From: Polyangium sp. 15x6
GTDB taxonomy: Bacteria > Myxococcota_A > Polyangia > Polyangiales > Polyangiaceae
Reading direction: 5' to 3'
Length of the DNA stretch: 45,681 bases
Assembly: GCF_029960785.1 (NCBI RefSeq)
Contig: NZ_JASBQE010000094.1
Location: 1-45,681 of the forward strand
Below the pieces are notes generated by a model. That model saw nothing but the letters and a program-made list of their open reading frames with translations. It had not been told where the DNA came from and searched no databases. A program made the position numbers and the translations under genes. Shown here piece after piece: positions 4,248 to 15,188 of this stretch (position 1 is its first letter; each line of letters begins with the position of its first letter).

Positions 4248-4940
4248 CTACTTCAGCGACGGGTCGCCCCCACGCCAATCGCTGAATGCACCACGCGCGC
4301 GTCGACACTCCACGATCACGACGCGCTTGTTCGCATCGGAGGACGTTCCCCACTGCGAGGGCATGAGGAGGGCGTCGGTGCCGTCGCCGCACGCGCTCGA
4401 GATCTGCGGGCGAATCGCTTCGACTTCCTTGGGGCCCTTGGCGGCGGGCGCATCGGTGCACGGCGTGAAATACCACCCGCGCTTGGGCGTCGAGATCGTC
4501 GGGTCGGTCCAGCCCGCCGGCGTCGCGCGGCTCTCGACCGAGACCTGTCGAACGCCGCAGGCGGTGACGGTCGCCAATTCGAATTCGGTGAACCGCTTCT
4601 CGCACTGTGCCCGCATCTCGGCCGCCGAAAGCTCGCCTTTCGAGGTGGTGAGCTTCGCCTCGGGATAATCGCGGGCGAACGCCTTCCAGGCATGCGCCTC
4701 ACCCACAGGGACGTCGCCACCGCACTCCCAGAGCTTCTTCCTCGCCTCGACGCGCGCCTTCACGTCGGCCTCGGTCTGGAGATCCACCGGCGCGGTTACG
4801 CCCATGGCCTCCTCGAAGTTGGCGAGCATGACTTTCGCCATATCCGGATCCGGGGAGCGGGCGTTGCCACCCCAAAGCGCCCCGCAGCCGGTCCCGCACA
4901 AGACCAGCGCGCTCGTCGCGACCAGGAAACCAGATTTCAT
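4248..4940 (-). CDS. Predicted lipoprotein, unknown function
   Basis: Starting at ATG 4940 gives MKSGFLVATSALVLCGTGC, a signal peptide ending in a lipobox-like Cys at residue 19, and a mature protein of about 210 residues. The frame stays open upstream, but a start there would put charged residues before the signal peptide. The mature part has six further cysteines, including CGGD, CTDAP and VECRRAR, which suggests disulphides in the periplasm or at the outer membrane. I do not recognise a domain. It follows the CMGCH lipoprotein gene on the same strand after about 85 bp, so the two may be co-transcribed. Confidence 0.7.
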   Translation of the reverse strand: MKSGFLVATSALVLCGTGCGALWGGNARSPDPDMAKVMLANFEEAMGVTAPVDLQTEADVKARVEARKKLWECGGDVPVGEAHAWKAFARDYPEAKLTTSKGELSAAEMRAQCEKRFTEFELATVTACGVRQVSVESRATPAGWTDPTISTPKRGWYFTPCTDAPAAKGPKEVEAIRPQISSACGDGTDALLMPSQWGTSSDANKRVVIVECRRARGAFSDWRGGDPSLK

Positions 4941-5025
4941 GGAAACGGGGCTATGCCGGGTGTCATGCCCTGTCAAGCGCAAACGAGCAGCATTGAGGTG
5001 TGGGAGAGCGATTCCGATGGAATGT

Positions 5026-5772
5026 TCAATCGTCACCGCTTTTCGCCGGACCCAGACCGAACACACGCTCGTATCGAGCGCTCACGTGGCAACCCATGCA
5101 CGATGCGACGCGCCCCGCGGACGTCACCTCCCCCGTGGGCGTCACCGTCCCATAGACCCATCCCGCGTCCGTGCCCGGCGTTCCGGGCGCGACCTTGAGC
5201 ACGACATAGGCCCCGGCGAGCCGCGAGGCCCGGTAGACCTTCTCGCCGAGTCGTACATACGGGTTGAAATGGTCGGCCGTCGTGGGTTTTTCCTGCTCCG
5301 CGAGGTCGGCCTTGGGATCCGCTTCTTCCACGAGGTCGGGGTGATAACTCTCCTTCACGAGGATCTGCCCCACCGGCTGGGGCACGGCCGGGGCGGACGG
5401 GGTGAGCGGATATGCATGTTGCTCCTTGGCAAACACCGAATAAAGCTTGCGCGCGTGGTCGCCGTCCTCCGCGGCGCTCATACGCGCGCGGCCAGGCAGC
5501 GGCATGCGGCAAAGCCAGGGAGCCCAGCGCAGCTCGTCGTCGATGCGCCCCCAGGCCTTGTAATCGCGGAATGCGGCGGCGATGACCGGGACAAACCGAG
5601 AATCGAGCTCGGCGGCGTTCGGGGCGGATTCGGTGGCCGGCGCGGCGGAGGATATCGCCGAAGGTGCGGGGGCCGATGCTTCTTTGCTTTCGTCCGCCGC
5701 GGTGATGGGCTCGTCGAGGGGGCGGGTGCACGCGGGCGCGAGGGCGAGGAGGAGCAGCAGAAGAGGACGCAT
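5026..5772 (-). CDS. Cytochrome P460-like lipoprotein with one CxxCH haem motif
   Basis: A 248-residue protein. It has a lipoprotein signal (LALAPAC, Cys at residue 15), then a low-complexity Ala/Ser/Glu linker to about residue 55, then a globular domain. That domain contains ILVKESYHPD, AYVVLKV, GWVYGTV and, near the C terminus, CMGCH. The order of a KESY-type strand, a GW-Y strand and a terminal CxxCH is what I know from the cytochrome P460 family, where haem is bound covalently and P460 members oxidise small nitrogen compounds. I do not see enough to claim hydroxylamine chemistry, and a plain mono-haem c-type domain is the alternative. It sits 59 bp downstream of the RpoC-like gene on the same strand and upstream of another lipoprotein gene. 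Confidence 0.65.
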   Translation of the reverse strand: MRPLLLLLLALAPACTRPLDEPITAADESKEASAPAPSAISSAAPATESAPNAAELDSRFVPVIAAAFRDYKAWGRIDDELRWAPWLCRMPLPGRARMSAAEDGDHARKLYSVFAKEQHAYPLTPSAPAVPQPVGQILVKESYHPDLVEEADPKADLAEQEKPTTADHFNPYVRLGEKVYRASRLAGAYVVLKVAPGTPGTDAGWVYGTVTPTGEVTSAGRVASCMGCHVSARYERVFGLGPAKSGDD

Positions 5773-5831
5773 CAGGATCGCTCAGACGTACACGACACGC
5801 GGAAGATCTGCACCCTTCGCGCGGCGCGCCG

Positions 5832-7562
5832 TCACGCGTGGCGCACCGCGTCGGGTGCGGTGAATCGGCTGATGATGGCAGGCTCGTGGCTCACGGAGAC
5901 GATGACGATCTCTTCATCCGTGGCGATGGCGATCCGATCGGCGGCAGGACTGAACGCGGCCGCGAGGATCATCGTATCGATCCGGAACCACAGCTTCTCG
6001 CCGTCACTGACGACCCCGGTGCCGTGGAGGAAGCGAAATCGATTTTGCGGGGTCGAGCCGATCGCCGTCGCGGTTTCTCCGGCGTCGCCTTCATCACGCA
6101 CGTCGGGGGCCTCGGGAGACATGCGCACGACGGGGTCGTCTGCGTGGAACCAGGACTGCATCACGGGGTCGAGCTGCGGGATTCCCGTATCAAGGTCGAG
6201 GACGGCCGTTTCCTCCTGCTCGCCGACCCAGGCATAGCGGCCGTCTCGCGTGCTGGCCAGCATCGCGGGCCGATCCCCACCCCAGCGAAGGGGCGCAGGC
6301 CGCGGGTGCGCGGGCTGCGACGCGCCCTCCGCGACGCTGCCGACCACGAGTTCCTCGGGCTGGGCGTGCTCGAGCAAGCGCAGCGGCATGTCCGCGGGAT
6401 AGGTGTCGAGATATTCTCTCGTGTCGAGGTCGAGCACGGCCACGCTCGCGCGGCCCGATTTGGCGTCCCAATACTCGTCCTGTCCAAACCAATCCCACTC
6501 GTCTCGAATCCACTCCGTCATGCGCAGGCGCGAGCCGTGTATGCTGGTAACCATTCGACCGCACGAGGGGACGTGCGCGAGGACGTCGCCGCCGGTGGTG
6601 ACGAGCCACGATCCGTGGGGCCTCTGCACGAACAGCCGCTCGTCGTCGACGAAGAAGAGGCCCCTGACCTCGGTCCCGACATCCTCCGGCAAACGGCTCG
6701 GCGCGCCCATGAGGCGCACAGGCGACGAAATCGGCTCCGACTCGGGCCACGGGCGCGTCGCCGCGGGGGGCGACACGGTGGCTTGCACGACGACCTCGAA
6801 GAGCTCCTGGACCGTGCACTGCTGGTTCATCAGGACAATCGGCGGCGGCGAGAGCTCGACGAGCCGGAGCTGGCTCTGCGCCGCGAGCACGAGGGAGCGC
6901 CATGCCTCGTTGAGCGGGCCTATCCACGGGTCGACCATGGCCGGACCGAGATCGCCGAAGAAAGGACGCATCCCCGGCGGCGGCAGCGGGAGGGCGCGGG
7001 TGACCGCCACCGCCACGAGCGCCGGGTCGGCTCCTTTGCGGATCAATGCCGCCTCCAGCGCCGAAGGGCCCGTCGCATCGGCGTTCTCGTGCGTATCCAT
7101 TTCTTCGGCGGGGCGCACGGTGTCGCCGTCGAACCATGCTTCGCAGCGCGCGATCGCGCGAACCTGATCCGCGGACAAACCCAGCACATCGGCAACGAGG
7201 GGCACGACCGCGGGGTGCACGACGCCCGCGACGAGGACATGGCCGTATCGACGCTCGCGCAGCGCGGGCGTGGAGCAGAGGACCCCGCACTTCTTGCATG
7301 ACTCGCCGGCGTGCTCCTCCCCGCACAGCGCACCACACGCGCAGCGCAACGGGCTCACGGGCCCGAAGATCCGCTGGCAGAAAATGCCGTCGCGGGCCGG
7401 CCGCCGCCCGCTGCCCGACCAGCGCCGCATGAGCTCGATGCTGGTCACGCGCCCGTGCGAGCGCATGTCTTCGGGAGCCGCAGGATCGAGGAGGTTGGTC
7501 CGGACCCATTGAAGGTCCGCCACGACGTCCGACGGAGAAAAGAACCGATCTCGAAGAGACAT
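5832..7562 (-). CDS. RpoC N-terminal (clamp/zinc ribbon)-like domain joined to a beta-propeller-like domain
   Basis: A 576-residue protein. Residues 58-108 read like the start of RNA polymerase beta-prime: DGIFCQRIFGPV, then Cys 74, 76, 89 and 92 with the C-x-C-x12-C-x2-C spacing of the beta-prime zinc ribbon (Cys 70, 72, 85, 88 in E. coli), then RRYGH for the RRxRMGH region. Residues 191-258 match the later beta-prime segment: LPPPGMRPFF, PLNEAWRSLVL and LSPPPIVLMNQQCTVQELFEVV correspond to LPPDLRPLV, LNDLYRRVINRN and [20 protein letters not shown]. The part between is much shorter than in beta-prime. The catalytic NADFDGD region and everything after it are absent. From about residue 290 the protein is a run of short strand repeats (AVLDLDTREYLDTYP, AMLASTRDGRYAWVG, LAAAFSPAADRIAIA), like a WD40/beta-propeller. 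ATG 7562 is preferred over GTG 7589. There is no signal peptide, so it is cytoplasmic. Its function is unknown. Confidence 0.8.
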   Translation of the reverse strand: MSLRDRFFSPSDVVADLQWVRTNLLDPAAPEDMRSHGRVTSIELMRRWSGSGRRPARDGIFCQRIFGPVSPLRCACGALCGEEHAGESCKKCGVLCSTPALRERRYGHVLVAGVVHPAVVPLVADVLGLSADQVRAIARCEAWFDGDTVRPAEEMDTHENADATGPSALEAALIRKGADPALVAVAVTRALPLPPPGMRPFFGDLGPAMVDPWIGPLNEAWRSLVLAAQSQLRLVELSPPPIVLMNQQCTVQELFEVVVQATVSPPAATRPWPESEPISSPVRLMGAPSRLPEDVGTEVRGLFFVDDERLFVQRPHGSWLVTTGGDVLAHVPSCGRMVTSIHGSRLRMTEWIRDEWDWFGQDEYWDAKSGRASVAVLDLDTREYLDTYPADMPLRLLEHAQPEELVVGSVAEGASQPAHPRPAPLRWGGDRPAMLASTRDGRYAWVGEQEETAVLDLDTGIPQLDPVMQSWFHADDPVVRMSPEAPDVRDEGDAGETATAIGSTPQNRFRFLHGTGVVSDGEKLWFRIDTMILAAAFSPAADRIAIATDEEIVIVSVSHEPAIISRFTAPDAVRHA

Positions 7563-7674
7563 GGGCGCGATTTTCCCTCGGCAAACCACGATGCCGGCGA
7601 GGGATGCCCGTACGCGACCTTCTCGGCGGCGTCAATGGTAGAGCGAACGGCCTACCGCCTTGCGGTTCGAGAAT

Positions 7675-8916
7675 TCAGGGCGAGATAGTCGGCCGCCGCG
7701 TGGTGATGCTGATTTCACCCGGGCTCTCCTCCGTGAACCACGCGACCGTGGTCGCCTCGGCGGCTCCGCCGCGCACGCGGGCGACGCGAATCTCGCCGTC
7801 GATCCCACCGGCGCCGTAGGCGATCAGCGCGTCGTCGCCGCAGATGCCTGGAGCCGCGCTGATCGCCGAATGGGGGTTGGCTGCCGGGTCGATCGGGAGA
7901 GGCTCGCCCCAGCCCACGCCGGGCACGTAGCGCAGCGCGTAGACAACGCCCGTCGTCGCAGCCATGCCGACGATCACGTCGCCCGCGGGGGTCGCGGTGA
8001 GGGCGAGAACGAGGCTCTGGTCCGCCAAGGTAATGCTCTCCGGGGCCGACCAGACCCCCTCATGGAGCCTCGTCGCCGCGATCCTGGCATAGCTCTCGTA
8101 GTACACGACGACCACGTCACCGTTCGGCAACGCAACGGCGCGCGGGGGCGCGACGGGAACCTCGGCCTGGAAAACCTCGATGCCGTCGCGGCAATGCATA
8201 TCCGTCCAGCTTCCGCCGTCCGCCCAGAAGATCTCCGTGTCGCAGAGCTCGCCCTGGGGGCCCACACCGACACCGAGAACGGTGCCCGACCCTTCCCTGA
8301 TGACAGCCGCGGCCAGATCGAACGGCGCCGGATCGGGATAGGGATGCCAGTCGAGCGCGTCCGGATCGAAATAGACGAGGATCGATCCTCCGACGCCACT
8401 GCCGAGGAGCAAGGAGCGTCCTACCGTGACGGGCGGGTTCCACGGCTGCGGGAACCAGCTCTGAACATCGTGGAGGTCGAAGCCCGTGCCATCGGAGGTC
8501 GACGCGAAATGGCTCTGCGCGGTCTCATAGCTCCCCTCGATCCAGAACACGCCCAGATGATCATGGACATCCACGTACGTCGTGAGCGCAGTCGCGGCCG
8601 CCATCACATATGCGTTTTTGGTCCACGTGCCCTCGTGATCGAAGGCGACCAGGCTGGTTGAAGGGCCCATGGCCGCGACAATCGCGGCCTCACCCTGCGC
8701 GCAGGCGGGCGCGGGGAGGCTGCCGCCGCCGCTGCCGCCGCTGCCGCCGGTGGACGACGACGACACGCTCGTGTCTCCGCTCGAGGCGCTGGACGCGCTG
8801 CTCCCACCCCCCGCGCCCGGCGTCTCGATGTCGACCTCGTTCCCGCACGCCGCGAGCGCGGCCACGAACGCGCCTGCCGCGATTGCGCGCCTCCGGGCGC
8901 TCACGATCTCGAACAT
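7675..8916 (-). CDS. Secreted lipoprotein with propeller-like repeats, unknown function
   Basis: A 413-residue protein with a lipoprotein signal ending AALAAC (Cys at residue 24), an acidic/Gly-Ser linker (residues 32-70) and a mature domain of repeated four-strand-like blocks such as SLVAFDHEGTW, YVDVHDHLGVFWIEG, AVALPNGDVVVVYYE and ALTATPAGDVIVGMA. The repeats suggest a beta-propeller of the sialidase or BNR kind, although no Asp-box is clear. The start at 8916 has a good Shine-Dalgarno (GGAGGAGA in the 5' leader). It lies 112 bp upstream of the RpoC-like gene on the same strand. Lipoproteins of this build are frequent in Polyangiales and mostly uncharacterised. Confidence 0.75.
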   Translation of the reverse strand: MFEIVSARRRAIAAGAFVAALAACGNEVDIETPGAGGGSSASSASSGDTSVSSSSTGGSGGSGGGSLPAPACAQGEAAIVAAMGPSTSLVAFDHEGTWTKNAYVMAAATALTTYVDVHDHLGVFWIEGSYETAQSHFASTSDGTGFDLHDVQSWFPQPWNPPVTVGRSLLLGSGVGGSILVYFDPDALDWHPYPDPAPFDLAAAVIREGSGTVLGVGVGPQGELCDTEIFWADGGSWTDMHCRDGIEVFQAEVPVAPPRAVALPNGDVVVVYYESYARIAATRLHEGVWSAPESITLADQSLVLALTATPAGDVIVGMAATTGVVYALRYVPGVGWGEPLPIDPAANPHSAISAAPGICGDDALIAYGAGGIDGEIRVARVRGGAAEATTVAWFTEESPGEISITTRRPTISP

Positions 8917-8964
8917 GATGTCTCTCCTCCGTTCGCCCGCCCCGATCGAGCAGGCACGACGAGG

Positions 8965-8986
8965 GTGGCCGCGCGGCGTCGGCCAC
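8965..8986 (-). terminator. Hairpin downstream of the capA-like gene
   Basis: GTGGCCG, an 8-base loop, then CGGCCAC, 23 bp past the stop of the capA-like gene. There is no T-run, so it could instead be a transcript-end structure or part of the next leader. Confidence 0.3.
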
Positions 8987-9008
8987 GCACCTTAAAGCCG
9001 ATTAAATC

Positions 9009-10169
9009 TCACCTCCAGCGCAGAACGAGGGCGGAGCCCTGGTCGAGGTCCACCTGTGCGCCGAATCCCCGGCTGATTCGATGGAGGGTATCCCGCAGCC
9101 ACAGCGCCGCGCTCCGGCCGACGTGATGCAGCCTGAAACCTCGGATCTGCATCGGCGTCATGCGGAGGCTCGCGAGCTCGCCCGTCGATGGATCCACGAC
9201 GGGAAAGTACATCAGGGCGAGATCCCCACGAAAGGACGCGTGGCCCGCGATTCCCTCGTAGTCGTTGAGGAAATCGCCGCAGCCGTAAAGGATGAGCTTG
9301 TTCCTGTAGACCTCGATGGGCCGCACGTGGTGCGAGGAGTGGCCGTGGACGAGATCGATGCCTCCCTCGATCAGCGCATGCGCAAAGCGGACGTGCTCCT
9401 CCGGGACGTCATACCCCCAGTTGCTCCCCCAATGGATGGACGCGACGACGACGTCCCCTGCCCGTTTGACGTGACGAACCCGATCCCGGATCTCGAGCGC
9501 GGTCGCCTCCGACAGGTCCGCGAGCCGATCGACACCGGGCGAATCGTCGGTCGCGGCCCAGCTCGCGGGAATGCCGCTCGACGCCGTCCCGAAGGCGAAT
9601 ACGTGGAGCCTTCTTGCTCCGCCGAGCGGGAGGACCGCGGGCGCGCGCGCCGCGCTCAGGTGTTCACCCGCGCCTGCGATCCTCAGCCCCGCCTGCTTCA
9701 GCGTCGTCAGGGTTTCGAGCAGCCCCGACGCGCCGAAGTCGAGCACGTGGTTGTTCGCGAGGATGCAGACGTCGATCCCAAAAGCCGCGAGGCAAGGGGT
9801 GTTCTCCGGGTGCATCCGGTAATTGATGCCCTTGCCTTCCCAGTACGTGTCGCTTCGCGTGACGCTGGTCTCCAGATTGATGATCCGCGCCGCGGGGGCC
9901 ACACGCTCGAGCTCGGAGAGGGCGTCTCCCCAGATGGACGAGAACGCGATGGGCCGCTGGATCGGTCCGTTCGTTTCCTCCGCCATCGTGACGTAGTCCC
10001 TGGCGTCCCGTACGTACGGCTCGAAGAGCGTCGGCTCGCTCGGGTGTGGCAGCACCTGATCGATCCCTCGCCCGGTCATGACGTCTCCGCACAGGAACAA
10101 CGTGAGGAGGTCGCCCGGCAGAGAATGGCTTGGTCCGCGTAGCTCCATCCACGGCGCCGCTTGGTGCAT
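9009..10169 (-). CDS. CapA/PgsA-family metallophosphatase-like protein
   Basis: A 386-residue protein of the PGA_cap family. That family belongs to the calcineurin-like phosphoesterase superfamily and is known from poly-gamma-glutamate capsule systems and from uncharacterised bacterial proteins. Visible motifs in order: FLCGDVMTGRGID, INLETSVT, LANNHVLDFG, VVASIHWGSNWGYD, HGHSSHHVRPIEVYRNKLILYGCGDF. Their Asp, Asn and His residues correspond to the metal-binding set. ATG 10169 is preceded by GGAGGAA at good spacing and begins just before the first motif. No signal peptide or anchor helix is seen, so unlike PgsA it looks soluble. No other capsule gene adjoins it. The substrate is unknown. Confidence 0.85.
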   Translation of the reverse strand: MHQAAPWMELRGPSHSLPGDLLTLFLCGDVMTGRGIDQVLPHPSEPTLFEPYVRDARDYVTMAEETNGPIQRPIAFSSIWGDALSELERVAPAARIINLETSVTRSDTYWEGKGINYRMHPENTPCLAAFGIDVCILANNHVLDFGASGLLETLTTLKQAGLRIAGAGEHLSAARAPAVLPLGGARRLHVFAFGTASSGIPASWAATDDSPGVDRLADLSEATALEIRDRVRHVKRAGDVVVASIHWGSNWGYDVPEEHVRFAHALIEGGIDLVHGHSSHHVRPIEVYRNKLILYGCGDFLNDYEGIAGHASFRGDLALMYFPVVDPSTGELASLRMTPMQIRGFRLHHVGRSAALWLRDTLHRISRGFGAQVDLDQGSALVLRWR

Positions 10170-10386
10170 CGCGTTCCTCCCGTCCAGGGTGCCCCGCGGC
10201 GCACGACAGGACCGCTGCACGATCGCCTGCTCGCACAGTCTGCGACCTCGGCGAAAAACCAAGTCGTGCCCTTCGTCCGCCTGGGCACGTTGCCCTCGGA
10301 CGAACGCCAAATGCCGCGAATGAAAAGGGATTGCGCACGCCCGTGGCGCGCGCCCGTATCCAAGTTTTCGTGCAAGGCGACGGCGC

Positions 10387-10392
10387 TAGAAT
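10387..10392 (+). promoter_or_regulatory. Possible -10 box of the mpaB-like gene
   Basis: TAGAAT lies 51 bases before ATG 10443 in the 273-bp divergent gap. The -35 at 17-bp spacing (GTTTTC) is poor. Nothing else was recognised in this gap. Confidence 0.3.
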
Positions 10393-10442
10393 TCTCCTCC
10401 TCGCAGGCGGCGCGGCGCCGCCTCCCCAGCCCGCGAGGGAGC

Positions 10443-11774
10443 ATGCAAGGAGACCATCCCAGGGGTCGGATCCTCGCGAACATCGCGAAGCCGGCCGGTT
10501 CGTTCTGGAAGACCTCGAAGCTGACCGCGCGCATCTTGATCGGCCGGCAAGCCGAGCCCACGCAAGAGCAGTACGAGCAGTTCGTCGATCTCATGTTCGA
10601 GGGTGATCCCCTCGGCGACGCCGTCGCCGCGTGGATGCTGAAAGAAGGCGTCGGGCGCTCGATGAAGACCTTCGATCACGCGCTCCGCCACGGCATCGCG
10701 TCGATCGAGAGCCCGCCCGAGCCGCTGCGCACGCTCTTCGAACAGGTCGATCGCAGGCCCTTGTGGCTCGACAAGCAGATGCTGCTCGCAGGTCAGCGCG
10801 CGGCGCAGCGCGCCGGCGCCTTGATGCCGTACATCCTCGGAGACCTCGCGCTCGTGGGCGGCTACGTGACGATGGGCGCGATGAACAAATCGCTCGTGGC
10901 CACGGGCGCGCTCGCGCCCGGCGGCTCCGCGAGGCGGCTCTACGAAACGCTCTGCTGGTGGCTCGACGTGACGGGCGACCATGGCCTCGAGCGCTACGCG
11001 CCGGGGTTCATCTCGACCGTGAAGGTGCGCGTGATGCACGCCCTCGTGCGCATCCGGCTGAGCCGCGATCCGAGCTGGCGATTCGAAGCGTGGGGCGCGC
11101 CGCTCAGCCAGGCACACCTGGCGACGACGAACCAGGCGTTCGCCTCGGCGTACATCACGCTCGCGCGCGGCTTCGGCGTGCGGTACTCGGCCAGCGAGAT
11201 CGAGTCGATCATGCACCTCTTCCGCTACGCCGGCCTCCTCATGGGCGTGCGCGAGGAGTACTGCTGCGCGACCGTGCGCGAGGGCTTCCGCCTCATCACG
11301 ATGTCGCACGCGACCTCGCCTCCGCCGGACGAGGACGCCGTGAAGCTCGCCGAGGGCTACTTCGAAGGCGGGCTCGATTTCCGCACGCGCATGCCGAAAT
11401 GGCCGCCGATGCAGACCCTCGGCGGCGCGCTCTCCCGTCTCTTCCTCCAGTCGCGGATCGGCACGCTCCGGGCGCTCCTCGGCGAGCATGACGCCGACCT
11501 CCTGAAGATCCCTCCGGCCGGCATCTCGAAGGCGTTCCCCGCGGTGCTCCTCGGCACGACGCTCGCGGCGCAGGCGGCGACGAGCTTCCTGCCCGACGCG
11601 CGTGCGCTCCAGGCCCGCATCGGGCGTCGCATCCAGCTCGGCATCAAGGAGATGTCGCCGCTCGGCGGCGAAGGCCCGATCTCGTACCAGCCCTACGAGC
11701 ATCGCGAAGGCGCGGAGCGGCGCGCGATGCGGCCGCACGCCGTCCGCGCGGCGCCTCAGTCGAGCCAGCGGTAG
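10443..11774 (+). CDS. MpaB/latex-clearing-protein family oxygenase (DUF2236)
   Basis: A 443-residue protein. Members of this family (fungal MpaB', bacterial Lcp rubber oxygenase) carry a b-type haem and cleave C=C bonds oxidatively; many bacterial relatives have no known substrate. Visible family features are the early helix LWLDKQMLLAGQRA, a membrane-like helix around LGDLALVGGYVTMGAMNKSL, the region RLYETLCWWLDVTG and the block VRVMHALVRIRL, whose His is the likely haem ligand, followed by a downstream helical bundle. ATG 10443 is chosen because it follows the gene's leader; longer reading upstream is not family-like. It overlaps the convergent TetR gene by 19 bp at the 3' ends, and that gene probably encodes its regulator. 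Confidence 0.8.
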   Translation: MQGDHPRGRILANIAKPAGSFWKTSKLTARILIGRQAEPTQEQYEQFVDLMFEGDPLGDAVAAWMLKEGVGRSMKTFDHALRHGIASIESPPEPLRTLFEQVDRRPLWLDKQMLLAGQRAAQRAGALMPYILGDLALVGGYVTMGAMNKSLVATGALAPGGSARRLYETLCWWLDVTGDHGLERYAPGFISTVKVRVMHALVRIRLSRDPSWRFEAWGAPLSQAHLATTNQAFASAYITLARGFGVRYSASEIESIMHLFRYAGLLMGVREEYCCATVREGFRLITMSHATSPPPDEDAVKLAEGYFEGGLDFRTRMPKWPPMQTLGGALSRLFLQSRIGTLRALLGEHDADLLKIPPAGISKAFPAVLLGTTLAAQAATSFLPDARALQARIGRRIQLGIKEMSPLGGEGPISYQPYEHREGAERRAMRPHAVRAAPQSSQR

Positions 11775-12382
11775 ATGCGATCCGCGAGCGCCGAAAGGAC
11801 GGCGTCGTGGTCGATCTCGGGGCTCGGCACGAATACGAGGCCGAGCACGGTGCCGGCCGTCAGCGTCTGCATGAGGTAGAGCGACTCCGCCGTGAGCTCG
11901 CGCTCGCGATCGCGCCTCTGCCCGTACGCGTGCTTCACGAGCTCCGTGACGAGCGCGTGCGCGCCTTGCACCGAGGGCACGCTCATGATGAACGGCACCG
12001 TGAAGAGCAGCGCCGACGCGAGCTTCTCCTCCTGCTTCACCTGCTGGTGGATGAGGCGGATCCAGAAGTGGAGCATCTCGCGCAGCGGCAGGGCCATGGC
12101 CTCGTCGAGGTGTGCGCGGAACGCGGCGATGGATCGATGCACGGCGCGGTCGGCGACCTCCGCGACGATCGCGTCCTTCGTGTGGAAGTACTCGTAGAGC
12201 GAGGCGATGTTCACGCCTGCGCGCTCCGCGATCTCGTTCGTCGTGAGGCCGAGATAACCGCGCTCGGGCAAGAGCTCCTCGCACGCGAGGACGATCGCGT
12301 CGTAGGTGAGCCGCGAGCGCGACTGCTTCGGCCGCTTCTTCGGCTCAAGGATGTAGGGCGTGCTGCCGGTGGCCGGAGGCAT
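11756..12382 (-). CDS. TetR-family transcriptional regulator
   Basis: A 208-residue protein with an N-terminal TetR helix-turn-helix at about residues 30-72: ERGYLGLTTNEIAERAGVNIASLYEYFHTKDAI, written here in its two helices and the invariant YxYFxxK turn. The rest is a helical ligand-binding and dimerisation domain. TetR proteins usually repress a neighbouring enzyme or efflux gene until a hydrophobic ligand binds. Here the only close partner is the convergent MpaB-type oxygenase, whose 3' end it overlaps by 19 bp. No operator palindrome was identified in the oxygenase promoter. Confidence 0.93.
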   Translation of the reverse strand: MPPATGSTPYILEPKKRPKQSRSRLTYDAIVLACEELLPERGYLGLTTNEIAERAGVNIASLYEYFHTKDAIVAEVADRAVHRSIAAFRAHLDEAMALPLREMLHFWIRLIHQQVKQEEKLASALLFTVPFIMSVPSVQGAHALVTELVKHAYGQRRDRERELTAESLYLMQTLTAGTVLGLVFVPSPEIDHDAVLSALADRIYRWLD

Positions 12383-12486
12383 GAGGTCCCAGGACGTACG
12401 CTTGCCGCGCCCACAACGTAGCGTCCGCGGCGCAGAGGGTCTATCGAGCCATGCGGGTTCTCTCCGCTCCGCCCGAAAGACGCTGC

Positions 12487-13584
12487 ATGAATCACCCCAC
12501 GATCGACATCGACGCCATCCGTAAAAGACCGAGCATGTTCATCGGAGCAGTCGATGACGGCAGCGGCTTGACGCACATGATCTGGGAGTTGCTCGCGAAC
12601 ACGCTCGACGAGCATGTCGGCGGTACCTGTCGGGCGGTCTCGATCTCGCTCAACGAGGACGGCTCGGTCACCGTCCAGGACGACGGTCGCGGGATTCCGA
12701 CGCATGAGCTCGACGGAGTTCCCTTCGCCCAGAAAGCGCTCACGTCGTGGCATGCAACACCGACGTTCGACGGGCACGCGCCTCACGAACACGTCGGCGG
12801 CCATGGCGTCGGGATATTCGTGGTGAACGCCTTGTCCACGTGGCTCGAACTGGAGATATTTCGCGAGGGTACTCATTACAGGCAACGCTACGAGCGTGGC
12901 GTACCGTGTGGCCCCCTCGAAGCCGTCGAATCGACCCATCGAAGCGGGACGACGATCACCTTCCTTCCCGACCCTACGATTTTCTCGAACCCCTGGTTCA
13001 ACGCCGGCACCATCGCCACCCGGATGCAAGAGCTCGCATACTTCGTCCCTTCCCTGAGGCTCGCCTTCGCGGACCGGCGCAAACATGAGTTCCACGAGCC
13101 ACGCGGCCTTCGCGCGTTCCTGGAGCGGACGCCCCGTTCGGGCACGCACCTCGGTACCTTGACCGTCGAGGAGCGCGTCGGTGAAATCTTGGTCGAGGCA
13201 GCCATGAATTGGCAGGACGGTCCATGGGCTTCGTCTTCCATCGATAGCTACGCCAACATTGAACGTACGACGGACGGCGGAACGCACGTGCAAGGTCTCT
13301 TGACCGGCTTGGCGCTCGGACTCCGTGACGTCGAGGGGTCGCGCGTGCGCAAGCGACCGCTGAAGCAGCTACGCGGAATCGTCGCCCGAGGTCTCCACGC
13401 TGTCGTATGTGTACGGCTCCGCGACCCGACATTCGGCGAGCCCACGAAGAGCCGACTCATGACGCCGGCGGTCGCGAAGGCCGTTTCCGGGGTGGTGCGC
13501 CATGCATTCGTGGTCGAGCTCCAGGACAACCTGGAGCTTCGTCGGCATTGTATTCGCCTGCTCGACGGAGAGCCCACGCGCTGA
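12487..13584 (+). CDS. Stand-alone GyrB/ParE-type GHKL ATPase, no TOPRIM domain
   Basis: A 365-residue protein that covers only the ATPase and transducer half of a type IIA topoisomerase B subunit. Visible: IRKRPSMFIG near residue 11, the N-box WELLANTLDEH (Glu34, Asn38, Asp41), DDGRGIP at 65-71, the GHGVG lid with VVNALS, GGTHVQGL for GGTHxxG, and PTKSRLM in the place of the QTKxKL loop whose Lys contacts ATP phosphate. The protein stops about 40 residues later, whereas GyrB and ParE run to 630-800 residues and continue into the TOPRIM and tail that bind DNA and GyrA. ATG 12487 is used because the family sequence begins there; an in-frame ATG at 12451 is less likely. It may act as an ATP-driven dimeric clamp or regulator. 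The partner is unknown. Confidence 0.85.
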   Translation: MNHPTIDIDAIRKRPSMFIGAVDDGSGLTHMIWELLANTLDEHVGGTCRAVSISLNEDGSVTVQDDGRGIPTHELDGVPFAQKALTSWHATPTFDGHAPHEHVGGHGVGIFVVNALSTWLELEIFREGTHYRQRYERGVPCGPLEAVESTHRSGTTITFLPDPTIFSNPWFNAGTIATRMQELAYFVPSLRLAFADRRKHEFHEPRGLRAFLERTPRSGTHLGTLTVEERVGEILVEAAMNWQDGPWASSSIDSYANIERTTDGGTHVQGLLTGLALGLRDVEGSRVRKRPLKQLRGIVARGLHAVVCVRLRDPTFGEPTKSRLMTPAVAKAVSGVVRHAFVVELQDNLELRRHCIRLLDGEPTR

Positions 13585-13703
13585 GGAAAGGGCCGAGCTT
13601 CGAGAGGCACGCCTCGACAGCACCTTGGCGTCCGGCGCCGCACGCCCAATGGAGCAGGTGCGCGAAAGCGGTTCGGTTCGCGAACGACCCGGAGGGCAAG
13701 GGT

Positions 13704-14090
13704 ATGCGTTTTCCCATGAAGATCCGCGGGGCGATGGCTCTTTCTACTTCTCTCGCGCTTGCCGGCTGCATGGCCCAGGAGAGCGACGTGCCGCCAGGGG
13801 AGCCCGCGGGTGAGGCGGAGCAGGCGCTCGACATCGCGACCGGGGACGTGATCTGCAACAGCGGCTGGCCTGGAACGCGGGGCTGCAGTGCGCGGTTCGG
13901 CGATGGGAGGGAAATCCTGCCCGGGTCGATCAAGGTGAACGTCGTGGGCCACAATGGGGCCATCAGCTGGAGTGCGGAGCTCGTCGACAACAACCGCGCC
14001 ATCAACTTCACGGCGAGCATCCGCGAGGGCAATGCCTTCGGCCCAGGAGACAACACGACCCGATTCGCGCTGGCGTGGATCACCTTGTAG
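13704..14090 (+). CDS. Small predicted lipoprotein (128 aa)
   Basis: MRFPMKIRGAMALSTSLALAGC gives a lipoprotein signal with Cys at residue 22. The mature part of about 105 residues has a Cys pair (VICNSGWPGTRGC) and an all-beta look (INFTASIREGN, TTRFALAWITL), as in small sandwich domains. GGAGGG at 13691-13696 is 7 bases from ATG 13704, which fixes the start. No family was recognised. It lies just before the CBM3 lipoprotein gene but is separated from it by 234 bp containing strong hairpins, so it is probably a separate transcript. Confidence 0.7.
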   Translation: MRFPMKIRGAMALSTSLALAGCMAQESDVPPGEPAGEAEQALDIATGDVICNSGWPGTRGCSARFGDGREILPGSIKVNVVGHNGAISWSAELVDNNRAINFTASIREGNAFGPGDNTTRFALAWITL

Positions 14091-14123
14091 GAATCTGCCA
14101 GGAACCGATGTCTCGAGCACGCG

Positions 14124-14154
14124 GGCGCGCCATGCGCCCGGCGGCATGCCGCCC
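14124..14154 (+). terminator. Two adjacent GC-rich hairpins after the small lipoprotein gene
   Basis: GGGCGC-GCCAT-GCGCCC at 14124-14140 is followed directly by the perfect 14-bp palindrome GGCGGCATGCCGCC at 14141-14154. There is no T-run. It is a likely transcript end or folded spacer. Confidence 0.45.
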
Positions 14155-14233
14155 TCGCGGCGGAGGGCCACGCTGAAAGCGCCTCGCTCTGGATGCCCTA
14201 CCGACGACGCCGCGGCCCGGCGCGACGCCTCCA

Positions 14234-14247
14234 CGCAGTAAATGGCC
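14234..14247 (+). promoter_or_regulatory. CGCAGTAAATGGCC motif upstream of the CBM3 gene
   Basis: It lies 78-91 bases before ATG 14325 and matches 13 of 14 bases of the motif at 37277-37290 (minus strand), upstream of another secreted lipoprotein gene. It is a candidate activator site or non-standard -35 element. Confidence 0.4.
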
Positions 14248-14324
14248 TTTTCTAACCGTGTTTCCGATTTGTTTCGTCGGAGCAACGTGTTAGTGCCGAT
14301 CTCGTTATGCCATAGGGAGGTGTC

Positions 14325-15188
14325 ATGAATTCTCGCGCGAGCCGTGCCTTTCACGTCCTCCACTCTTCCCGGGCGAGATCGAGCATGCAATGCGTCACGC
14401 TCCTGCTGATGTCGGCGTTCCTTCTCGGGAGCTGTGCCGAGGGGCTCACCGGCGACCCCGACCAGAACACCGGTGCTGGAGCCGGGACCGGCTCCGGCGG
14501 CATGGGAGGTGCCGGTCAGGGAGGGGCGTCGAATTCGTCGAGCTCGTCCGCGTCATCGAGTTCGTCCGCGTCATCGAGCTCCTCTGCGTCATCGAGCTCC
14601 TCTGCGTCATCGAGCTCCTCCGCGTCGTCGGGCACAGGGGGTAGCGGCGGCGCTGGCGGCGCTGGCGGTTCAGGCGGCTCTGGCGGCTCTGGCGGCGGCC
14701 CGACGGGCATGATGGTTCAATACAAGGTGGAGATCAGCGCCACCGCGACGTCGGCCATCGGTTCCCAGTTCTGGATCGTCAACAACGGCAGCGACCCGGT
14801 GAACCTCGATGATCTGACGCTTCGTTATTACATGACCAATGAAGTCGCTGCGACGCTCGTCAAGACCATCAACTGGGCCAACGTCGGCGCCGTGGCCGGC
14901 CCCAGCGCGGGATTCCCCACGGGCAACATCGGCGTCAACGTGATGCCGATGGCCATGCCCGCGCCGTCTGCCGACACCTACGTGGAGTTCAGCTTCAGCG
15001 GCGGCAACAACGTGCTGGCTCCCGGCTACCGCTTGCAGTTCTCCTGGACCGTCCAGAACTTCATGTCGCAATCGTTCGATCAGCCCGGGGACTATTCGTT
15101 CAACGCCGCGGCCTCGGCGCAGACGGAGTGGCCAAACGTGGTCCTGATGTACCAGGGACAGTCGGTGGTGTGGGGCATCGAGCCCTGA
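14325..15188 (+). CDS. Lipoprotein with C-terminal CBM3 cellulose-binding-type module
   Basis: A 287-residue protein: signal and lipobox-like LLGSC, then a Gly- and Ser-rich linker to about residue 127, then a carbohydrate-binding module of family 3 at residues 129-287. The module is recognised from MVQYKVE, the strand FWIVNNGSDPVNLDDLTLRYY, the central Asp-containing ADTYVEFSF, GYRLQFSW, DYSFNAAASAQTEW and the terminal VVWGIEP, which is the usual CBM3 ending. CBM3 binds crystalline cellulose or chitin-like surfaces. No catalytic domain is attached, so the protein would tether the cell to a polysaccharide or serve as a scaffold. AGGGAGG directly before ATG 14325 fixes the start. An 18-bp repeat encodes the serine tract. 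Confidence 0.88.
   Translation: MNSRASRAFHVLHSSRARSSMQCVTLLLMSAFLLGSCAEGLTGDPDQNTGAGAGTGSGGMGGAGQGGASNSSSSSASSSSSASSSSSASSSSSASSSSSASSGTGGSGGAGGAGGSGGSGGSGGGPTGMMVQYKVEISATATSAIGSQFWIVNNGSDPVNLDDLTLRYYMTNEVAATLVKTINWANVGAVAGPSAGFPTGNIGVNVMPMAMPAPSADTYVEFSFSGGNNVLAPGYRLQFSWTVQNFMSQSFDQPGDYSFNAAASAQTEWPNVVLMYQGQSVVWGIEP
14535..14624 (+). repeat. 18-bp in-frame repeat, 5 units, serine-rich linker
   Basis: Five units resembling TCATCGAGCTCCTCTGCG encode SSSSSA; units three and four are identical. The unit length is a multiple of three, so slippage would only lengthen or shorten the linker of the CBM3 lipoprotein. Confidence 0.9.

Follow-up and report, generated by a model that had tools for sequence, protein, structure and literature searches.

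A Polyangium gene for a catalysis-free descendant of the RNA polymerase β′ clamp, fused to a separate C-terminal domain

Introduction

What use could a bacterium have for a detached piece of its own RNA polymerase? The question is raised by a gene in the window, by which we mean the whole 45,681-nucleotide stretch of DNA analysed here (Polyangium sp. 15x6, contig NZ_JASBQE010000094.1, positions 1 to 45,681, forward strand). A first-pass annotation, made from the sequence, read its product as a fragment of the β′ (RpoC) clamp that has a zinc ribbon, lacks the catalytic part and is fused to a propeller-like domain, and suggested that it mimics or competes with β′. A catalysis-free clamp piece kept by selection beside the whole enzyme would show that RNA polymerase surfaces are detachable and reusable.

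Results

The orphan gene and its start codon

The open reading frame covers 5832-7589 on the minus strand and could begin at GTG 7589 or at the conserved ATG 7562, the latter giving a protein of 576 aa. We consider ATG 7562 the likely start because each of the five carriers in the genus conserves the opening MSLRDRFF, and upstream of it, where the GTG lies, residues vary more. GAGGG is found 12 bases 5′ of this ATG. The features of the locus, with the basis of each in brackets, are:

5832..7562, minus strand: RpoC-clamp-derived orphan gene with a C-terminal beta-rich domain, 576 aa (ORF, homology, conserved ATG)
7503..7562, minus strand: residues 1-20, counterpart of the β′ N-terminal helix (alignment with the genome's own RpoC; MSLRDRFF in 5/5 genomes)
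7239..7397, minus strand: residues 56-108, RpoC-like DGIFCQRIFGP segment and zinc ribbon (homology; dN/dS 0.09-0.30)
7287..7343, minus strand: zinc ribbon, Cys 74/76/89/92 (sequence; all-or-none in 32 orphan rows)
7113..7268, minus strand: residues 99-150, orphan-family 'GHV...VVHPA' segment that replaces RpoC HIWFLKSLPSRIG and is slightly shorter (alignments)
6777..6998, minus strand: residues 189-262, lid and clamp helices, with A/Q/L at the positions of R275/E295/A302 (homology, residue table; dN/dS 0.27-1.0)
5835..6740, minus strand: residues 275-576, C-terminal beta-rich domain with propeller-like motifs and an unproven fold (profile and motif searches)
7675..8916, minus strand: upstream lipoprotein-like gene, 413 aa, fast evolving (adjoins the orphan throughout the genus, on the opposite strand in G378)
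5026..5772, minus strand: downstream gene, 248 aa, weak match to cytochrome P460 (retained on the downstream side in the genus, with intervening genes in two genomes)

An RpoC clamp without catalysis

Does the protein descend from RpoC? Its best match in a phmmer search of PDB was to RpoC (E=2.8e-15), with residues 53-133 corresponding to β′ 49-130, and a second, weaker segment placed residues 168-258 on β′ 222-306 (10.2 bits alone). Against the RpoC of its own genome, residues 19-144 scored 50.0 bits and residues 189-259 scored 8.3 bits, the two being collinear. Two controls accompany this comparison: the best of 1000 composition shuffles of the protein reached 3.0 bits, and a single one of the 383 six-frame, stop-to-stop frames of at least 60 aa in the window matched the genome's own RpoC, namely the orphan ORF. 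The order of the matched parts, N terminus and zinc ribbon followed by lid and clamp helices, is that of RpoC, so the later, separate β′ segment proposed in the first-pass annotation is indeed in its place, and Cys 74, 76, 89 and 92 have the exact C-x-C-x12-C-x2-C spacing that it described. Family models were matched below their cut-offs: NCBIfam rpoC models reached E=6.5e-12 but scored far too low (the two bacterial models gave 42.8 and 43.6 bits, their cut-offs being 963.5 and 1437), and Pfam Rpb1_1, with E=7e-4, fell below the Pfam cut-off. Read from the ATG, MSLRDRFF aligns with MRDIFSFF of the β′ N-terminal helix of the genome's own RpoC, and because the DNA from this codon reads like that helix the homology probably begins at residue 1.

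The window protein thus has in common with RpoC (Pfam Rpb1 domain 1, PF04997) the N-terminal helix, DGLFC..IFGP, the zinc-ribbon spacing, the lid, the clamp helices and their order, but it ends before the active site, has the 'HP' segment where RpoC has HIWFLKSLPSRIG, is about 50 residues shorter in mid-clamp, between the two matched segments, and is fused to an extra domain. A check of the sequence confirmed that NADFDGD is absent from it and present in the genome's own RpoC, an intact frame of 1445 aa on another contig. None of the 36 orphan sequences examined for it has the motif, many of them stopping short of its place; three chance D.DGD strings occur elsewhere. The window protein is a descendant of the N-terminal RpoC clamp, approximately β′ 1-308, that has no catalytic part and is fused to a new C-terminal domain, and it is nearly certain that it belongs to a family of RpoC-derived orphans.

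Purifying selection in a genome with an intact rpoC

The simplest way for such a gene to arise would be the truncation of a housekeeping one. Could it then be a decaying rpoC copy, or an artefact of assembly? We regard this as barely credible. The window-type gene is present in five of the six genus genomes, with long open frames, and in 8 of 98 family genomes when searched with the C-terminal domain; one carrier, Polyangium sp. y55x31 (L033; L073 is taken as the same gene), is an independent assembly, and the genome of the window has its intact rpoC elsewhere. The four genus relatives are about 78-90% identical to the window protein, and divergence from RpoC far exceeds this divergence within the genus. 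Whole-gene dN/dS was 0.21-0.37 over ten pairs, which share five genomes and so are not independent. The zinc-ribbon segment (53 codons) gave 0.09-0.30 and was lower than the whole gene in each of the ten pairs, in two of them by a narrow margin. The clamp helices (51 codons, noisy) gave 0.27-1.0, values on segments as small as these being rough, and the C-terminal domain gave 0.22-0.37 in the ten genus pairs. The neighbouring genes ranged from 0.22 (P460-like) to 0.89 (lipoprotein-like). Purifying selection maintains the gene in a genome that also has the whole of rpoC. Its orthologues in the genus share the architecture of zinc ribbon, clamp piece and C-terminal domain, and are not plain rpoC truncations next to a duplicated rpoB, the finding that the first-pass annotation had thought would count against it.

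The C-terminal domain

The last part of the protein had been described as propeller-like. That it is a separate, fused domain stands, but the propeller fold is unproven, and we call the last ~300 residues propeller-like by motif. The motifs DRPA..A.TRDG.YAWV and AAAFSPAADRIAIAT of the window-type domain are similar to those of WD40/beta-propeller proteins, whereas none of ten members scanned had a Pfam match to a propeller family and a profile self-comparison of the domain found no significant internal repeat. A profile of the domain did match solved WD40 proteins in PDB (2ymu, E=5.5e-23), via one 25-residue motif worth 2-6 bits that is scored anew at each repeat; a match over one continuous stretch, to Pwp2, had E=0.0012. 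An AlphaFold2 model of the window protein, built on an alignment of the window protein and L033 only, had a mean pLDDT of 30 and was discarded. Searched alone, the domain was found in 11 of 377 genomes at E<=0.01, six of these being convincing (E<=1.3e-8) and five lying at 0.005-0.01.

Some members have additions of their own. L041 (8380-9900), which has no zinc ribbon, contains an RpoB-like stretch, LTPEEKLLAAIF, within its C-terminal domain, and L042 and L098 share a related helical extension with a YGTL pattern beyond the domain (all by eye). One member of alignment A4, in the scan of the C-terminal domain, has a weak HHH_5 match (E=0.086).

A wider myxobacterial family

Sampling covered Myxococcota genomes, together with a scan for close-relative patterns in the genome collection and in phage, plasmid and viral collections. 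The whole window protein had matches in 226 of 282 Myxococcota genomes, mostly to ordinary RpoC frames. The clamp profile A3, run on 183 genomes of the order, matched 16 orphans (ten of them members of the profile, six new) along almost its full length at E<1e-28, all ahead of the first RpoC; the remaining orphans score at the level of RpoC or lower. Pfam Rpb1 domain 1 is found in most scanned members, often below cut-off, and several have no match. In 12 of 13 A3 rows the GH[IV] motif is followed by 'HP' where RpoC has HIWFLKSLPSRIG, a feature that L080 and its type do not have, and in most members the stretch before the lid is shorter than that of RpoC.

A maximum-likelihood tree placed 29 orphan rows and 13 RpoC rows on the two sides of one branch (100/98). 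All rows of a 17-row clade (96/90) have some C-terminal domain, as judged by eye. Ten orphan rows are very long-branched, which calls for caution, and the tree, having no placeable root, does not assign the family to a parent RpoC lineage. Four members (L036, L037, L043 and L045), which are fragments or miss the clamp helices, were left out of the tree, L072, L093 and L100 stand outside both the residue table and the tree, and five of the 14 Myxococcota RpoC references, as well as the Phocaeicola one, were dropped for having no match to the extraction motif.

By eye and by searches, two architectures are common:

Clamp only: L035, L039, L040, L080, L094, L095, L096, L099, L103
Clamp and C-terminal domain: the window type, L034, L041, L042, L065-L069, L091, L093, L097, L098, L101, L104

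Others are patchworks. In L038 the C-terminal piece of RpoB is fused in front of the RpoC N terminus and an alpha-CTD is also present (Pfam RpoB domains 6 and 7, Rpb1 domain 1 and alpha-CTD, with E values of 3.3e-21, 3.9e-4, 4.5e-38 and 4.1e-11). L102 likewise has an RpoB C terminus in front (PDB search, E=5.4e-12) and continues in β′ past the clamp, with other sequence at the place of NADFDGD. L045 joins an alpha-CTD (Pfam, E=3.9e-13) to a zinc ribbon (PDB search, E=2.2e-16), with an RpoB-like motif seen by eye only, and L043 has its zinc ribbon within a longer protein that has no Pfam match. L044, a 1557-aa frame, is a member by its zinc ribbon (E=2e-7); its best PDB match reaches only 0.02 and it has no Pfam match. 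We take the RpoB piece in L038 and L102 as a sign of how the family arose, not of an artefact. The window protein is one branch of a sparse myxobacterial family of RNA-polymerase-derived orphans. The first-pass annotation knew of no described family with this architecture, and we too found none: neither a description of RpoC-derived orphans in the open-licence papers searched nor, when members were scanned with Pfam, NCBIfam and PADLOC, a model devoted to them.

Did these genes arrive on mobile elements? The searches gave no indication of it: in the best 20 of 28 phage records and the best 20 of 63 plasmid records, matches spanned 11-18% of the query and lay around its zinc ribbon, and among these listed matches the named annotations were RpoC, RNA polymerase or hypothetical protein, many being unannotated. 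No viral contig carried the close-relative patterns. A separate gene, L092 (4429-10872, in G409), encodes an RpoB-RpoC-like polymerase in one chain of 2147 aa, its NADFDGD intact; it is not an orphan and resembles, by eye, a mobile or phage-type RNA polymerase.

Complementary clamp surfaces in one genome

Which surfaces of the clamp have the orphans retained? The four zinc cysteines go together: of 32 orphan rows with coverage of this region, 17 have all of them and 15 have none, and the best tree needs a minimum of seven changes. A second surface concerns sigma. Substitutions of β′ R275, E295 and A302 make holoenzyme formation deficient, according to PMC8321222. PMC10216364 places the first two of these residues at the interface with sigma32 and shows sigma2 contacting the clamp helices. 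RpoC rows have R275 in 13/13, E295 in 13/13 and A302 in 12/13, and in the window type all four aligned rows from the genus read A/Q/L at these positions; the fifth genus genome (L072) has A/R/L by eye. Because the three sigma-contact residues are changed, canonical binding or sequestration of sigma by the window protein seems unlikely.

The same genome has a second RpoC-derived orphan, L080 (8507-9610, G000:C242), and its type is found as well in G292, a genome without the window type, and in G339, G368 and G377, with a match in G378 that contains a stop. This type keeps R, E and A in all three rows and has lost the zinc ribbon. The genome thus carries two orphans with complementary surfaces, because the window type has the zinc ribbon without the sigma contacts and the L080 type the reverse. 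The cellular ligand of each clamp surface thereby becomes a simple pull-down question. Since sigma2 and RfaH (the latter as modelled in PMC5995543) both use the clamp helices, the L080 type would be a better candidate than the window type for sigma or NusG-type ligands.

Could the orphans then be regulators of host transcription, internal competitors that titrate sigma, NusG-type factors or other ligands of the clamp? The retention by the L080-type paralogue of residues needed for holoenzyme formation, the sigma2 and RfaH contacts with the clamp helices and the sigma-like neighbour of L044 are all consistent with such a role. The A/Q/L of the window protein, its poorly constrained helices and a patchy occurrence that would be unusual for a core regulator speak against it, and we consider it unlikely for this protein.

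Genomic neighbourhood

Gene neighbourhoods point in no single direction. Over 29 loci, with up to two genes taken on each side, the top family recurred in 3 of 108 neighbours, and a Pfam scan of the window neighbours found no transcription genes. These neighbours look secreted, being lipoprotein-like by eye, which hardly speaks for transcription, and neither the lipoprotein-like nor the P460-like gene suggests a pathway. None of seven family members matches a PADLOC defence model, and with no recurrent neighbour either, a defence role of the window protein has no genomic support. The locus of L044 stands apart: the gene called 10 bases upstream of it is sigma70-like (Pfam regions 2 and 4; E=5e-29 to RpoD) and also matches the PADLOC MzaA model, over its sigma part. 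At this locus (4281-14560) DUF2997, DUF1257 and 4Fe-4S genes, the sigma70-like gene and the zinc-ribbon orphan are followed by an SNF2 helicase.

Do the orphans belong to a contact-dependent or type VI secretion arsenal, as effector, immunity protein or adaptor, with the polymerase piece acting in or against a rival cell? DUF2169 genes lie within about 10 kb of L065, L093, L097 and L044, and a VgrG-like gene lies at L097; for the orphan loci of genomes that carry DUF2169 this makes at least 4 of 16, against about 0.85 expected, a hand estimate made post hoc, and the link is weak. Seven of the 15 orphan-carrying genomes have no DUF2169, DUF2169 and VgrG-like genes were not seen near the window gene (Pfam) or its four orthologues (gene calls, by eye), and no type VI family recurs among immediate neighbours, which makes this arsenal a very improbable home for the window protein. 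An STM4012/STM4013-type cassette (L068, 10619-16770; L039, 12909-16036) adjoins orphans of two genomes, with STM4014/STM4015-like genes in L068; it was not seen near the window gene.

Discussion

A decoy, a sensor or a reused fold?

What, then, does the window protein do? The earlier suggestion of a β′ mimic holds in that the protein is a non-catalytic, RpoC-derived clamp piece under selection, but mimicry by the usual binding of sigma is unlikely given its A/Q/L. Our tentative preference is for a non-catalytic clamp mimic that presents the face made of the N-terminal helix and zinc ribbon to a clamp-binding protein. Being a clamp look-alike that could not transcribe, it would offer this face to a protein that normally grips it on the polymerase, and binding would either draw that protein off the polymerase, as a decoy, or be read out by the C-terminal domain, as a sensor. 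Either role would be possible because the phage protein P7, according to PMC6624301, binds the β′ N-terminal helix and would clash with movement of the zinc ribbon. Clamp inhibitors of the phage type may be the most natural partners, because the family behaves like accessory genes in its patchiness, its multiplication and its loss of surfaces, although the choice of partner is a guess. For the clamp mimic we count the homology to RpoC and its order, the separation of the family by one branch, the missing NADFDGD, selection, the all-or-none zinc cysteines, the division of clamp surfaces between the two orphans of this genome, the joining in L038 of RpoB C terminus, RpoC N terminus and alpha-CTD, the sigma70-like neighbour of L044 and the patchy occurrence of the window type (5/6 genus genomes versus 8/98 family genomes). 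Against it we count clamp-helix dN/dS values of up to 1.0, the secreted-looking neighbours and the loss of the zinc ribbon in 15 of 32 rows, and because of that loss the ribbon face cannot be what the whole family uses. A decoy role, if true, would amount to immunity that works by mimicking the transcription machine.

The main rival is reuse of the fold with no link to RNA polymerase, in which the clamp piece would be a binding or structural domain and the C-terminal domain the functional part. We rate this slightly below the clamp mimic, and several observations fit it: the sigma contacts are lost, the clamp helices are relaxed, nearly half of the rows miss the zinc ribbon, the C-terminal domain is kept in the 17-row clade, and the scanned neighbours of the window gene include no transcription gene and no recurrent one. 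It sits poorly with the zinc-ribbon segment, which in the genus is kept at least as well as the rest, with relatives that carry further polymerase pieces or, in one case, adjoin a sigma-like gene, and with RpoC-like parts that are still in RpoC order.

A broader extension of the clamp mimic, which we judge a long shot, is that myxobacteria own a 'shadow polymerase', a kit of detached RNA polymerase modules acting as baits or triggers that detect or absorb polymerase-targeting proteins. Its modules would be the clamp-only proteins, the clamps with a sensor domain and the RpoB-RpoC-alpha-CTD patchworks, each keeping a different ligand surface and one standing beside a sigma-like protein. If true, this would be a transcription-based counterpart of decoy immunity.

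Known systems that bear comparison

Archaeal TFS4 is, according to PMC5715097, a paralogue-derived inhibitor of RNA polymerase, and to that extent similar, being a paralogue of the transcription machinery turned from the role of its parent. It derives from a cleavage factor and is not a piece of the polymerase.

The window also contains a second detached piece of an essential machine. At 12487-13584, on the plus strand and 4.9 kb from the orphan gene, lies a stand-alone front part of GyrB of 365 aa, with HATPase and DNA_gyraseB domains (PDB E=5.6e-60). The PDB entry 3cwv, 'DNA gyrase, B subunit, truncated', which presumably comes from a myxobacterium, is likewise the stand-alone front part of an essential machine. 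It belongs to a different machine and GyrB keeps its ATPase domain, and there is no evidence of a pathway shared with the orphan. The GyrB front part is found again at L073 (13521-14621), where 87% of it is kept, with a dN/dS of 0.32.
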